From: Flavobacteriaceae bacterium
Lineage (GTDB): Bacteria; Bacteroidota; Bacteroidia; Flavobacteriales; Flavobacteriaceae
Assembly: GCA_027073495.1 (NCBI GenBank)
Contig: JALSVQ010000164.1
Coordinates: 24,845 to 88,844 of the forward strand
Length of the DNA: 64,000 nucleotides
Reading direction: 5' to 3'
Shown one piece after another: positions 29,431 through 64,000 of this stretch. Each line of letters opens with the position of its first letter. Positions within the stretch are counted from its first letter, which is position 1. Made by a program: the position numbers and the translations under genes. Under the pieces are notes generated by a model, which saw nothing but the letters and a program-made list of their open reading frames with translations, did no database searches and was not told the DNA's origin.

Positions 29431-30057
29431 ATGAAAAAAACAGTTTTCATAATTATTGTGTTTTTTACACTAACACTTCAAGCTCAAGAAAAAAATACCA
29501 AGAATATTAAACAACCTATTGCTTTTGTAGAAATGCTAATGGCACGTTCTTTTATTATAAATGACTTACCAGGTTGGGCAGCAGGTGGTGAATTGAATTA
29601 TCAATACAAAAATCATCTCTTTTCTTTTAGATACATAGAAGATGTTCATAATAAATTTGTTATAGTATCTCCAAGTGTTATTTTACTACCATTACCATCA
29701 TTAGTGGAGCATATTACCAATAAAGAATTAGGTATTTTGTATGGCAGAAGATGGATTTATGATGATACTGCTATTAGTGTTTCAGGAGGAATTTCTTACA
29801 ATCATTATACTTCAAAAAATTTAGATTCAACTTTAGAACTAATAGATGATTATCTTGGTTTTCCATTAGAAGTCAACATTAAATGGTTTAAAGCACAAAA
29901 AGAACGTTATAGAATTTATCAAGTAATTCCTGTTGGAAAACCTACTGCTTTTGGACGGAGTTTTGGCTTTAAGTTTTTTGCTAATATCAATAAACATAGT
30001 TATTTAGGCTTTGGTTTTACCTATGGTTTTGGATGGCATAAAAAGTATGAAAAATAA
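29431..30057 (+). CDS. Secreted/outer-membrane beta-barrel-like hypothetical protein
   Basis: Signal peptide FTLTLQAQ; alternating aromatic/Gly C-terminal strands. Confidence 0.55.
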   Translation: MKKTVFIIIVFFTLTLQAQEKNTKNIKQPIAFVEMLMARSFIINDLPGWAAGGELNYQYKNHLFSFRYIEDVHNKFVIVSPSVILLPLPSLVEHITNKELGILYGRRWIYDDTAISVSGGISYNHYTSKNLDSTLELIDDYLGFPLEVNIKWFKAQKERYRIYQVIPVGKPTAFGRSFGFKFFANINKHSYLGFGFTYGFGWHKKYEK

Positions 30058-30114
30058 TTAATACATTATTCCAACCATTTTTTGAAAGCACTTACATTAT
30101 CACGGGCTACTATT
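30000..30114 (+). repeat. 115-bp direct repeat, copy 1
   Basis: ttatttaggctttggttttaccta...cacgggctactatt; three mismatches to copy 2, offset 1108 bp. Confidence 0.95.
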
Positions 30115-30249
30115 TTTGTGCTGAATTAATAATTAATGAGCATAGATCCTTGCATATTTTTACTTTGTTTTAATTTAGTTTTAGTGATTTTCATAATAGA
30201 TAAACCTGCAAGTGCTTATTAAAATTTAAAAAAAATAGTATTATAGCTT

Positions 30250-31103
30250 ATGGATAAGAGCATTAAATTAAAACAAATATATTTACCCTTTCTGTTTGTA
30301 TCAGTAAGTAGTATTCTCTTTTACAACACAATTAGATGGTTTCTCGATATCAAACTCGATATATTACATATCAATGAAGATCTTCTTGATATATGGATTC
30401 CATTAGTGTTTTCTTTTTTCACAGTTTATTTTTTTCTTGGAAAAAGGCTGCGTATTCTCGCTGTTAAAAACATTAGGAGTTATTACGCCTTACTAGAAAT
30501 ACTATCATTTGCTATTGCTGTACCTATTTTTTTGAGTCAAAATTATATTGAAAAAGCTTCTTTTGACCTTATTACGGTCAATACTATTGAAAAATACACC
30601 AATATAATAATGAGAAATACTTTGCTATAAATTCATTTTTGGTAAATAATACGGGTGTTTCTTATTTAACAGAAAAAACATTAGGAGCAAGAAATAGACG
30701 ACTTATTTTTTCATTATACTTTTTAACCCCTTTTCAAAATACGGATAATATTTGGTATGGAGTTATTTACAAAAAAAATATTAGTAATAGGATGGTAGCA
30801 GCAGCTAAAAAAGCTAAGTACAAAAGTTTTCTCGATAAATCATTAAAAGATTTTGGATCTTATGATTTTCAAAATGTAAAATATTTTGGAAAACTCATCT
30901 ATTCAGATGATAGGGATGGATTTATAAAAGCCTTTAAAGAAGCTGAAGTTGATACTATTGAATCACAAATAGTTTTGGTTCCAAAAACTAATAACTTTAA
31001 CAATAGGCTTGGTAATACTGTTACTTGGCTATTTGTTTCATTTGGGTTAGTTGCATTGGTAGTACTAGTAATTATTATGACACTAAAAATTAAAACGAGC
31101 TAA
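30250..31103 (+). pseudogene. Fragment resembling the N-terminal region of Bacteroidota rhomboid-family proteins; frameshifted, no rhomboid domain
   Basis: ORFs 30250-30630 (...TVNTIEKYTN) and 30639-31103. The second reads upstream in frame as ...NEKYFAINSFLVNNTGVSYL, so a single indel near 30600-30620 joins them. Ends at a TM (LVALVVLVIIMTLKIKTS*) with no GxSG rhomboid core. Confidence 0.55.
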
Positions 31104-31107
31104 CTGC

Positions 31108-31222
31108 TTATTTAGGCTTTGGTTTTGCCTATGGTTTTGGATGGCATAAAAAGTATAAAAAATAATTAACACATTATTCCAACCATTTTTTGAAAGCACT
31201 TACATTATCACGGGCTACTATT
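31108..31222 (+). repeat. 115-bp direct repeat, copy 2
   Basis: ttatttaggctttggttttgccta...cacgggctactatt; overlaps the 3' end of the response-regulator gene. Confidence 0.95.
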
Positions 31223-31947
31223 ACAGTATCTTCATCATAATGCTTTAGTTTTAACTCCAAGCGACTATTGGTATAGGCTATGATATCTTCTATACTTGAA
31301 ATATGAACAAAAAAACCGCGATTTATTTTATAAAAAACACTTGGTTCAAGCAGTGTTTCTAAATCTTTAATGCTATAATCTACAAGGTAACTTCTATTTG
31401 ACTTATGATGTAGGTAAGTGCCTTTGTCTTTACTATAAAAACATACAATGTCTTCAGTATTAATAAGTTTTAAATGCTGTCCAATTTTGATGATAAAACG
31501 TTTTTTGTATGATTTTGTAGTGTCAGTTAACAAATTTTTTAATTCATCAATGACTATATTTGTACTCGTACTGCCTTTGAAAGTTTTATATTTTTCTAAG
31601 GCATTATCCAAATCATCTTCATCAATGGGTTTAAGCAAATAATCAATGCTTTTTAGTTTAAAAGCTTTTAAGGCATATTCATCATAAGCAGTGGTAAAAA
31701 TAATGTTACTTTTTATTGCTACGTGTTCAAATATTTCAAAAGATAAGCCATCAGAGAGCTGAATATCTAAAAAAATTAATTCAGGATGCTCGTTGTTATT
31801 AAACCAATCTACTGCATCTTCTACTGCATGAAGTGTTGTTACAACCGCTAAGTTTCTACTTTCCAACAAGCGTTTGAGTCTTCTTGCTGCTGGTTTTTCA
31901 TCTTCTACTATCAGTACTTTCATTGCTTTAGTTTTAGAAACGTTCAT
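31174..31947 (-). CDS. LytTR-domain response regulator
   Basis: VLIVEDEKPAARRLKRLLE, ELIFLDIQLSDGLSFEIF, TAYDEYALKAFKLKSIDYLLKPID, LytTR tail VFYKINRGFFVHISSIEDI. Confidence 0.95.
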   Translation of the reverse strand: MNVSKTKAMKVLIVEDEKPAARRLKRLLESRNLAVVTTLHAVEDAVDWFNNNEHPELIFLDIQLSDGLSFEIFEHVAIKSNIIFTTAYDEYALKAFKLKSIDYLLKPIDEDDLDNALEKYKTFKGSTSTNIVIDELKNLLTDTTKSYKKRFIIKIGQHLKLINTEDIVCFYSKDKGTYLHHKSNRSYLVDYSIKDLETLLEPSVFYKINRGFFVHISSIEDIIAYTNSRLELKLKHYDEDTVIVARDNVSAFKKWLE

Positions 31948-33274
31948 TATCCATTAACTCAGCTACTTTTTTATCTTCCCAAGATTGTCCAAGATATTTC
32001 CCTTTGTAAAATATTTTGAAATATTGGATGAGTATCCCCAATCCCCATCCGCCAGCAGGGTAGAGGAACCATTTATGAGACCAGTTGTTAATATAATTTA
32101 TATATGCTAAAAATGAAATTACTGCTACGTAAATAGCTAATCCTATATAAAATTGACGCATTTCTTGAGCTGTTTTTTGAGCACGTGCTAAACGTGCTTC
32201 GTTTTGTATTGTTTTATTTTCCATAATGGGTGTTTTTTTAGTGAGTAAGGGTAAACTTACTATGAATTCAGTTGTTGTTTTACTTATTAATACAGCTTGA
32301 TCGCTAATGAGTTGATACCGTTGTACAATGTTTTGCAAACCAATTTTGGTACTTTTTTTAAAAATTTCTTTTGGGTTTAATTTATTTGATATCTCCAATC
32401 GCTCATCATTGATATGAATTTGGATGTGCAACGGATTTTTTTCATTTACTTTATTGTGTTTAACCGCATTTTCAAGTAATAATTGCAATGACAACGGTAC
32501 TATTTTAAGATTTTCTTTACTAGAATTATTTGTGATAGTATATTCCAATCCGTTTTCAAAACGAAGTTTGAGTAAGGTTAAATAGGATTCAGCAAAATGG
32601 AGTTCTTCTTGGAGTGGTACCAATGTTTTGTCACGCTGTTCTAACACATAACGATAGACTTTTGACATTTTACTTGTGAACTGCTGCGCTTTATCTGGGT
32701 TCTCATCTATCAATGATGATAACACATTTAAGCTATTAAACAAAAAATGAGGATCAATTTGGTTTTTTAAACTCTCATATTTTGCCGATTGATTTTCGGC
32801 TCTATATTTATGTTCATCAATACGTTTTTCTGTTAATGCCTTGAAAAAATAGATAAGATGAGCAATTACAGTTCCTATTAGTGCAAATATAAAGCTTGTT
32901 TTATAGTATTTTGAAGCGCCTTGATCTTCAAAAATATAACTAAATTCTTTATTATACATTATAACAAGTATAGCAACACGGAGAGCAAAAACAGCCAACA
33001 TGGTTACGGAAAGTGAACCTATTATCCCTATAATTAAGGTTTTACTAGGGTTTACTTTCCAAGGGAATTTGGTATTGAGATAGCGGTAAAAATAAAATTG
33101 AGAATATGATATTACAAATGTATAAACTTGCATCCAAAAAAATGAAATAGCGCCTTCTTCAGCAAATATATGCTTGCTCAATGTACCATAACTAATGTAG
33201 CGCTCTATCAAAAAGAGGATAGATCCTATGATAAAAGCTATTTGGATGTTTTTATTGATTTTCATGGACTTCAT
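31934..33274 (-). CDS. LytS-type sensor histidine kinase with fused C-terminal 2TM domain
   Basis: QIDPHFLFNSLNVLSSLIDENPDKAQQFTSKMSKVYRYVL, LQLLLENAVKHN; the last 96 aa (31934-32224) MENKTIQNEARLARAQKTAQEMRQFYIGLAIYVAV...WFLYPAGGWGLGILIQYFKIF..SWEDKKVAELMDNE are 2TM-like. Confidence 0.93.
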   Translation of the reverse strand: MKSMKINKNIQIAFIIGSILFLIERYISYGTLSKHIFAEEGAISFFWMQVYTFVISYSQFYFYRYLNTKFPWKVNPSKTLIIGIIGSLSVTMLAVFALRVAILVIMYNKEFSYIFEDQGASKYYKTSFIFALIGTVIAHLIYFFKALTEKRIDEHKYRAENQSAKYESLKNQIDPHFLFNSLNVLSSLIDENPDKAQQFTSKMSKVYRYVLEQRDKTLVPLQEELHFAESYLTLLKLRFENGLEYTITNNSSKENLKIVPLSLQLLLENAVKHNKVNEKNPLHIQIHINDERLEISNKLNPKEIFKKSTKIGLQNIVQRYQLISDQAVLISKTTTEFIVSLPLLTKKTPIMENKTIQNEARLARAQKTAQEMRQFYIGLAIYVAVISFLAYINYINNWSHKWFLYPAGGWGLGILIQYFKIFYKGKYLGQSWEDKKVAELMDNERF

Positions 33275-61664: not shown

Positions 61665-63329
61665 ATGAAACAACTAATTTTTTTTATAATACTATTATTT
61701 AGTTCTTTGTTATTTGCTCAAAAAAATGCAGATGACAAGGAAAATAATAAAGAACTGGAACAGTTATATGAGAATAATGCATATAGTGAAATTGTTGAAC
61801 TGTTAAAAAAGAATAACGATAAACTCTCAATGCGTGAATATAATTTGTTAACGATATCTTATGCACGTATCCAACAGTATGCCAATGGTTTGGTGTCTTC
61901 TAATAAAATGATAGAAAAGTGCAAAGAGAAAAATGATACCACAAACTTAGTTATAGCCTATAATCGTAAGGTAGAAAATCTTCTTGATTTGGAACGTTTA
62001 AAAGAGGCACTTAAACTCTGTGAAACTATAGAGCCAACCTTTAGAGTAAAGGATTCTATTCAATTTCAAAATCTTTGTTTTAAATGGGGAATACTATATA
62101 AACTAAAAAAAGATTATAATAAAGCACTTGAAGTATACGATAAAATAACACATAAGAAATATAGGGAATTAACACTGTTTACTAATAATTATGCAACAAT
62201 ATTAGAAGGATTAGGGAGGTCTGATGAAGCTATTGAATATTATAAAAAAGCAGTAGAAATTGATCTAAAAAATCATAAAGATGTAGGTCTTACATACTCA
62301 AATATTGCCCATATATTAATGAGTATAGGTCGATTAAAAGAAGCACAAAAATATTTAGATTTAGCAGAAAATAGTATTACAAAAAAAACACCGTTGCGTA
62401 CTCAAAAAATTATTTATAAATACTATTATGACTACTACCAAGGTACTAAAAATACTTTTTACGCAAGTATTTATTTGTCATTTATAGAAGACACAAATAA
62501 CAAAATTTATAACAAAAAACTCGATACAGAGTTGGAGGCTTTAAAAATTTCTTATGAGAGTAAGCGCAGACTAAATGAAGAAATAGAATCTTATAAAAAG
62601 CAAAAACTGTATGGAACTATTATTTTATTACTTATTATTCTCATTTTAGTTTCCATTCTATTCTATTTAAAATACAGAAATATTAAAGATGCCCATAAAA
62701 ATGTTGTTACAGAGCAGAAACTACTACGATCTCAGATGACGCCTCATTTCATTTTCAATTCATTATCGGTTTTACAAGGTATGATTTTAAATAATGAAAA
62801 TAAGAAATCAATTTCATATCTTTCAAAATTCTCAAAATTATTACGACTTATTTTAGAAAATTCGAGAGAAAAAGTAGTTCCAATAAGAGAGGAATTAGAA
62901 GCTATAAAGAATTATATTGATTTGCATAATATGCGAAGTGATATCACCTTTGAGTATGCACTTATTTTAGATGAAAATCTAGATGATTTAGATATCTATA
63001 TTCCACCAATGCTTATACAACCATTTATTGAAAATGCTATTGAGCACGGCTTTCAAAAAAAGTATGAAGGGGCTAAAATAACAATTCACATTTCATTGAA
63101 AGATAATAAGCTTATTTGCATTATAAAAGACAACGGTGTTGGTCTAAATGCTAAAAAGAGCACTCCAAATACTACTAAAAAATCACTATCTACCCAAATC
63201 ACTAAAGAGCGCTTGAAACTTATGGCAAAAGAATTTAAGGTTGAGACAGGATTAACCATTCAAGATAGGGGGGCGTTTAATGAAAAAGGAACACAGATTA
63301 ATTTAACATTACCATATAAAATTTTATAA
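61665..63329 (+). CDS. TPR-containing LytS-type sensor histidine kinase
   Basis: TPR units (GRSDEAIEYYKKAVEIDLKN), one TM, QMTPHFIFNSLSVLQGMILNNENKKSISYLSKFSKLLRLIL, PPMLIQPFIENAIEHGF. Confidence 0.95.
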   Translation: MKQLIFFIILLFSSLLFAQKNADDKENNKELEQLYENNAYSEIVELLKKNNDKLSMREYNLLTISYARIQQYANGLVSSNKMIEKCKEKNDTTNLVIAYNRKVENLLDLERLKEALKLCETIEPTFRVKDSIQFQNLCFKWGILYKLKKDYNKALEVYDKITHKKYRELTLFTNNYATILEGLGRSDEAIEYYKKAVEIDLKNHKDVGLTYSNIAHILMSIGRLKEAQKYLDLAENSITKKTPLRTQKIIYKYYYDYYQGTKNTFYASIYLSFIEDTNNKIYNKKLDTELEALKISYESKRRLNEEIESYKKQKLYGTIILLLIILILVSILFYLKYRNIKDAHKNVVTEQKLLRSQMTPHFIFNSLSVLQGMILNNENKKSISYLSKFSKLLRLILENSREKVVPIREELEAIKNYIDLHNMRSDITFEYALILDENLDDLDIYIPPMLIQPFIENAIEHGFQKKYEGAKITIHISLKDNKLICIIKDNGVGLNAKKSTPNTTKKSLSTQITKERLKLMAKEFKVETGLTIQDRGAFNEKGTQINLTLPYKIL

Positions 63330-63330
63330 A

Positions 63331-64000
63331 ATGCTTAAAACATTAATAATTGAAGACGAAATATATATTAGAAAAGGACTTCGAACAATGATTGATAGTC
63401 TCGAAAAAAATATAGTTATACTAGGAGAATGCGGAACAGTTAAAGAATCTATCGTTGTTGCTAAATCTACAAAACCAGATTTGATTTTTCTTGATATCAA
63501 TTTAACCGATGGAAATGCCTTTGATTTTTTAGAACAAACCAACGAACTTGATTTTAAAGTTATTTTTATAACAGCTTATGAGCAATATGCACTACTAGCT
63601 CTCAAAAATGGCGCTGTAGATTATATTCTAAAACCTGTAGATATTGAAGAGTTAGAAGCGGCAATAGACAAAGCAATTGTTTTGAACAGTAGCACAGAAA
63701 AAGAGCATTTGAAAATTGTAAAAAATCAATTGATTAATAATAAAAAAGACAAAATAGTTATACGAATTCAAGAAGGGTTTCAAGTGATTAGGCTAGAAGA
63801 CCTTATCTATTGCAATTCTGATAAAGGCTATACCACTTTTAATTTAGCTAATGGAAAATCGTATCTGGTTTCTAAACCTATTAAAGAATTTGAATCTCAA
63901 TTACCTAATGAGACATTCTTTAGAACACATCAATCCTATATTGTAAATATTAATTATATAGACAAATATGACAAAACGGGTTATATATACCTGAAATCTG
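63331..64000 (+). CDS. LytTR-domain response regulator (truncated by window end)
   Basis: MLKTLIIEDEIYIRKGLRTMIDS...PDLIFLDINLTDG...TAYEQYALLALKNGAVDYILKPVD...FFRTHQSYIVNINYIDKYD; open to 64000. Confidence 0.95.
   Translation, partial: MLKTLIIEDEIYIRKGLRTMIDSLEKNIVILGECGTVKESIVVAKSTKPDLIFLDINLTDGNAFDFLEQTNELDFKVIFITAYEQYALLALKNGAVDYILKPVDIEELEAAIDKAIVLNSSTEKEHLKIVKNQLINNKKDKIVIRIQEGFQVIRLEDLIYCNSDKGYTTFNLANGKSYLVSKPIKEFESQLPNETFFRTHQSYIVNINYIDKYDKTGYIYLKS

Follow-up and report, generated by a model that had tools for sequence, protein, structure and literature searches.

A probable decayed insertion between long direct repeats at a convergent gene junction of a Flavobacteriaceae genome, and loci of the same build elsewhere

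Organization of the barrel/LytTR junction

The window, by which we mean the whole 64-kb stretch of DNA that was analyzed, includes a gene junction where a segment of 993 bp lies between two copies of the same sequence. Upstream of the segment there is an intact open reading frame on the plus strand (29431-30057) that encodes a barrel-like protein of 208 aa; no Pfam or NCBIfam match was obtained for it, and the gene is rare, with homologues in 8 other genomes among 400 of the family. Downstream, convergent with the barrel-like gene, lies the intact gene of a LytTR response regulator of 257 aa (31174-31947, minus strand; Pfam LytTR and Response_reg), followed by the gene of its partner, a sensor histidine kinase with a C-terminal 2TM domain (31934-33274, minus strand; Pfam His_kinase and 2TM). 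The pairing of the LytTR regulator with the histidine kinase is kept in the six relatives examined. A second pair of the histidine kinase/LytTR type is located at 62586-63963 of the window, and it shows weak similarity to the pair at 31174-33274.

The two copies of the junction, at 30000-30114 and 31108-31222, form a direct repeat of 115 bp with 112 of the 115 positions identical (97.4%), free of gaps and with a start-to-start distance of 1108 bp; the coordinates and the three differences reported in the earlier note were confirmed. Outside this repeat no 25-mer occurs more than once on the same strand of the window, and under a simple composition model the chance expectation for a match this good is ~1e-47 in 64 kb. 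Copy 1 includes the genuine barrel end together with an orphan tail of the LytTR gene (30066-30114, minus strand), and copy 2 includes an orphan barrel tail together with the true LytTR end; the ends of both genes bear out this arrangement, which had been claimed before. The copies differ at 30019 (A/G, Thr/Ala), 30049 (G/A, Glu/Lys) and 30062 (T/C, intergenic), that is, only in the barrel/intergenic half, and the final 52 bp, on the LytTR side, carry no difference. The predicted folding of the repeat is unremarkable (z 0.24).

The inserted segment (30115-31107, plus strand) has a GC content of 26.8% and carries no mobility gene. Neither a transposase, nor an integrase, nor terminal repeats were found in these 993 bp, and no family match in the insert supports a transposase, as had been stated from the first reading of this DNA. 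The open frames at 30250-30630 and 30639-31103 gave no convincing match to Pfam or NCBIfam; when the second frame was used to search 400 genomes of the family, homologues were identified in eight other genomes, as open frames of 512-552 residues. As we read their sequences, these proteins have a membrane part at the N terminus and a rhomboid protease part at the C terminus. The insert was compared with the 512-aa rhomboid-fusion homologue in L124. Within the first frame (30250-30630, plus strand), positions 30265-30606 correspond to residues 7-122 of this protein, and within the second frame after the frameshift (30591-31103, plus strand), positions 30591-31091 correspond to residues 118-286. 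The insert therefore represents a flavobacterial rhomboid-fusion gene, of which it keeps the 5' 56% (residues ~7-286 of 512); this recognisable broken gene had been missed in the earlier note. The gene has a frameshift near 30600, it is truncated at the right border, where its stop codon (31101-31103) is placed four bases short of copy 2, and the rhomboid domain is missing; in consequence, the insert gene is a pseudogene. A genome search with 30115-31107, which had been suggested as a check, showed that the segment is single in the assembly, and its protein gave no match on plasmids. The missing rhomboid half was not found elsewhere in the genome, whose four other rhomboid genes are short ones and at most weakly similar. 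We propose no present function for the insert, and the structure is decayed and probably functionless.

Loci of the same build in the host genome and its relatives

The host genome (192 contigs, 2.35 Mb, 88.6% complete) is the sole representative of its genus among the genomes compared. A total of 1.00 Mb of it was scanned for direct-repeat pairs, the surrounding genes were read and the hits were classified by eye; hypervariable, tandem or multi-copy repeat hits (L159, L172, L179, L185, L225, L230, L234, L235) were left uncounted. Six more loci with this build were identified, in which one or two genes lie between copies of the end of a neighbouring gene. Where no family call was available, the names yigZ, prs, YeiH and DUF1697 used below are those that we presume from the sequence.

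At locus B (L162) a MutS-like gene is the cargo, and the repeat (163 bp, 92% identity) covers the final 54 codons of a gene of the yigZ type. The repeat at locus C (L174) takes in the leader of prs and the 5' part of the gene; it spans ~725 bp, split into two pieces of 94% and 97% identity. The cargo of this locus is a gene for a membrane protein of 221 residues, and the outer prs copy shows a frameshift and an internal deletion. Locus D (L176) has the genes of a Cons_hypoth698 (YeiH-type) transporter and a DUF5395 protein between 261-bp copies (95%) of the terminal part of a tRNA1(Val)-methyltransferase-like (trmN6-like) gene. At locus E (L178) the gene of a secreted SASA esterase of 818 residues is enclosed by two copies of the 5' part of a DUF1697-type gene; this repeat measures ~319 bp, and the orphan copy has lost 42 bp. 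The repeat of locus F (L165; 137 bp, 81%) stems from the end of a DUF3570 gene and encloses the gene of a 204-residue membrane protein, and locus G (L220 16120-18367, G000:C21) carries an AbiEi-AbiEii pair between copies of the end of a cation-efflux (CDF) gene (109 bp, 99%). Locus G is the youngest-looking of the sister insertions.

Each sister locus has one copy that is part of an intact gene and, across the cargo, an orphan copy, and the stop codon of the cargo lies at most about 65 bp from the far border. The repeats of the sister loci have identities of 81-99%, and their length varies with the site, from 109 to ~725 bp over the seven loci; no common border or terminal motif was seen among the seven insertions. 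When the differences between copies were pooled over loci B-F, we counted 37 synonymous changes in ~290 sites and 46 non-synonymous changes in ~1057 sites. Judged from these counts, the differences would be those expected of one constrained and one decaying copy, and a diverged donor would also be compatible with them; the yigZ copies (8 synonymous and 5 non-synonymous differences) seem to lean toward a diverged donor.

The direction of the change can be read at prs. In 23 of 24 prs loci of relatives there is one prs, with tRNA-Leu(CAA) just before it and in most cases rplY and pth after it; the gene for the 221-residue protein is absent from the 24 loci. In the host genome, this tRNA-Leu is separated from the intact prs by the decayed prs fragment and, after that, the 221-residue gene. 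Given the common order in the relatives, the segment and the extra target copy at prs are gains.

Insertions of this build are also present in relatives whose genomes are single contigs. A clear case was found in G014 (L308 1377-3842), with a repeat of 212 bp (95%) and a gene of 392 residues inside, and a locus of G021 (L242, 119 bp, 99%) is probably another. The insertion in G014 adjoins a gene that reads as a type I restriction methylase. The tally amounts to 7 per 1.00 Mb in the host versus 2 per 1.20 Mb in the single-contig relatives; this excess of the host over the control genomes is suggestive but not significant (P about 0.05).

Origin of the duplicated junction

The earlier note had claimed that the barrel and LytTR genes were once adjacent and that the intervening DNA came later. 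The six sister loci and the order at prs in relatives argue for this sequence of events; the empty junction itself was not found, neither by a DNA search of 60 relatives, in which the matches were mainly to LytTR, nor with the LytTR protein in species genomes, where the best identity was 60%. For this reason, the order of events at the barrel/LytTR locus was inferred from the sister loci. The result named in the earlier note as a refutation, a two-copy structure kept by relatives around functional genes, was not seen either, and the intervening gene is here a pseudogene.

Insertions of this kind are known but poorly understood; the one at the barrel/LytTR locus has decayed, and both flanking genes are intact. 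It is highly probable that foreign or displaced DNA was joined illegitimately, in this case at the barrel/LytTR junction, that the target was duplicated as it was copied or crossed over during the joining, and that the orphan gene parts decayed after the insertion. This could have been brought about by a Campbell-type integration of a circle bearing the target and the cargo, or by a repair or replication switch in which the target was recopied after the cargo; both fit the observed structure. No circular donor carrying the junction and the insert was found. A match to Ku, which is present in 3 of 31 genomes, was not obtained in the 88.6% complete assembly, and this argues against the repair of a staggered break by Ku-dependent joining. 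The host genome encodes ComEC, so that DNA uptake would be possible; a literature search on merodiploids formed via natural transformation returned nothing. A broader proposal, that this lineage gains single genes at many sites by an active, recurring and sequence-independent insertion that works without a mobile-element enzyme, duplicates 0.1-0.7 kb of target and is perhaps linked to uptake, is tentative and on balance doubtful.

The structure could also have arisen with no foreign DNA, through a tandem duplication of a region running from a rhomboid gene to the barrel and LytTR genes, with its break in the LytTR tail, and a later deletion that fused the rhomboid gene to the second barrel tail. 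Such a deletion would leave the right end of the truncated rhomboid gene directly at the barrel tail, as observed, and the barrel gene and the cargo are on one strand. Nonetheless, two separate events would be required, and the barrel gene would need a native rhomboid gene in its vicinity; the assembly has none that matches the insert, and at the loci fetched from relatives the homologues of the barrel gene and of the rhomboid gene are never neighbours, and neither lies beside LytTR. In addition, the same course would have to be repeated at six loci with unrelated cargo, and at prs the cargo is missing from the loci of the relatives. We consider this origin improbable.

A site-specific mobile element or an integron-type cassette, of which the insert would be a non-autonomous or decayed remnant and the 115-bp repeats the attachment sites, is a very unlikely source. 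In its favour, each of the two gene ends is completed by the repeats, a property of attachment sites that lie in gene ends, and the intact rhomboid homologues of other genera carry conserved attC-like cassette ends; however, the insert has no integrase or transposase, the cassette ends of the homologues are missing from it, the junction does not fold beyond expectation, and the repeats of the sister loci are unrelated, variable in length and devoid of a shared core. An integron-cassette origin of the window insert was rejected given that the ends conserved in four homologues are absent here.

An artefact of assembly, that is, a metagenomic chimera of strains joined through the shared junction sequence, might be suspected in a genome of 192 contigs, 88.6% complete and represented by one strain, but it is hardly credible considering that the copies differ at three sites, that the sister repeats differ by up to 19% and their orphans have indels or frameshifts, unlike joins made through k-mers, and that the same build is present in single-contig genomes.

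Comparison with known insertions and other repeats

As in the target-site duplications of insertion sequences and transposons, the target is directly repeated on either side of the segment. Those duplications have a fixed length of a few bp, and they are accompanied by a transposase and usually by terminal inverted repeats. In contrast, the window insert has no transposase, no terminal inverted repeats and no short duplication of fixed length, and the earlier judgment that 115 bp is too long for the duplication of an insertion sequence holds.

Homology-facilitated illegitimate recombination usually replaces or deletes recipient DNA, whereas at the window locus the target was duplicated and nothing was lost. 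The likeness between them is the entry of foreign DNA without mobile elements; in transformable bacteria this recombination is described as the combination of one homologous and one illegitimate join (PMC3240628; PMC2884548 citing primary work). The small variable segments of bacterial genomes include non-mobile insertions that have been ascribed to illegitimate recombination, some of them flanked by direct repeats (PMC2884548); these repeats are mostly <30 bp (PMC2884548), in contrast with the 109 to ~725 bp observed here.

The closest resemblance is to the insertion with long target duplication, which is reported to have been found by comparing two strains of Helicobacter pylori (Nobusato et al. 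2000, Gene 259:99; PMC1643837, PMC3031569) and concerns in that bacterium mainly restriction-modification genes (PMC1643837, PMC3031569). In both, a segment lies between long direct repeats of variable length that copy the target, and a transposase is not needed. Unlike the H. pylori cases, the insertion lies in a flavobacterium, its cargo is a rhomboid-fusion gene that is dead, and there is no pair of strains to compare at the locus. Restriction-modification cargo, which is a frequent association and not a strict definition of these insertions, was not found; the sister loci carry instead genes for a transporter, an esterase, a MutS-like protein and membrane proteins, and one of them the AbiEi-AbiEii genes.

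The kind of insertion is already known, and the new aspect is its recurrence over the genome with ordinary cargo, which is of more interest than the window locus itself. The value of this locus is that of a pointer to insertions with long duplications that recur throughout the genome and in relatives. A process known mostly from the restriction-modification genes of Helicobacter may be a general route for the entry of single genes without mobile elements, and the sister loci, some of which lie in well conserved neighbourhoods such as that of prs, make it countable and testable.

Other repeated or cassette-like structures were observed in these genomes. Four rhomboid-fusion genes from different genera (L140 5320-6858, L142 5587-7125, L143 1686-3224 and L144 5593-7131) are 90-92% identical; their neighbours are unrelated, and they have in common the lead-in GTTAGCTTGCATTTAAAAC and an attC-like end that starts at the stop codon (TAACAACGTATATAAAA...CATATACAAGACCGTTA), resembling integron-type gene cassettes. 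In L225 (G000:C44), L230 (G000:C117) and L139, small hypothetical genes are separated by attC-like repeats of ~125-140 bp (AACGGTTTGAATATGCGTAGTTGCGG...CCGCAATTACGTATATTTTTTGTT), and the array in G000:C44 adjoins what look like decayed pieces of an IS30-like transposase. Finally, L159 7714-17207 (G000:C124) contains a tandem duplication of 4.7 kb (90%), whose unit consists of a gene for a protein of 578 aa followed by genes that look to be of the PorP/SprF and OmpA types; between the duplicates the 301-aa proteins read as identical, those of 637 aa are nearly identical, and those of 578 aa differ.
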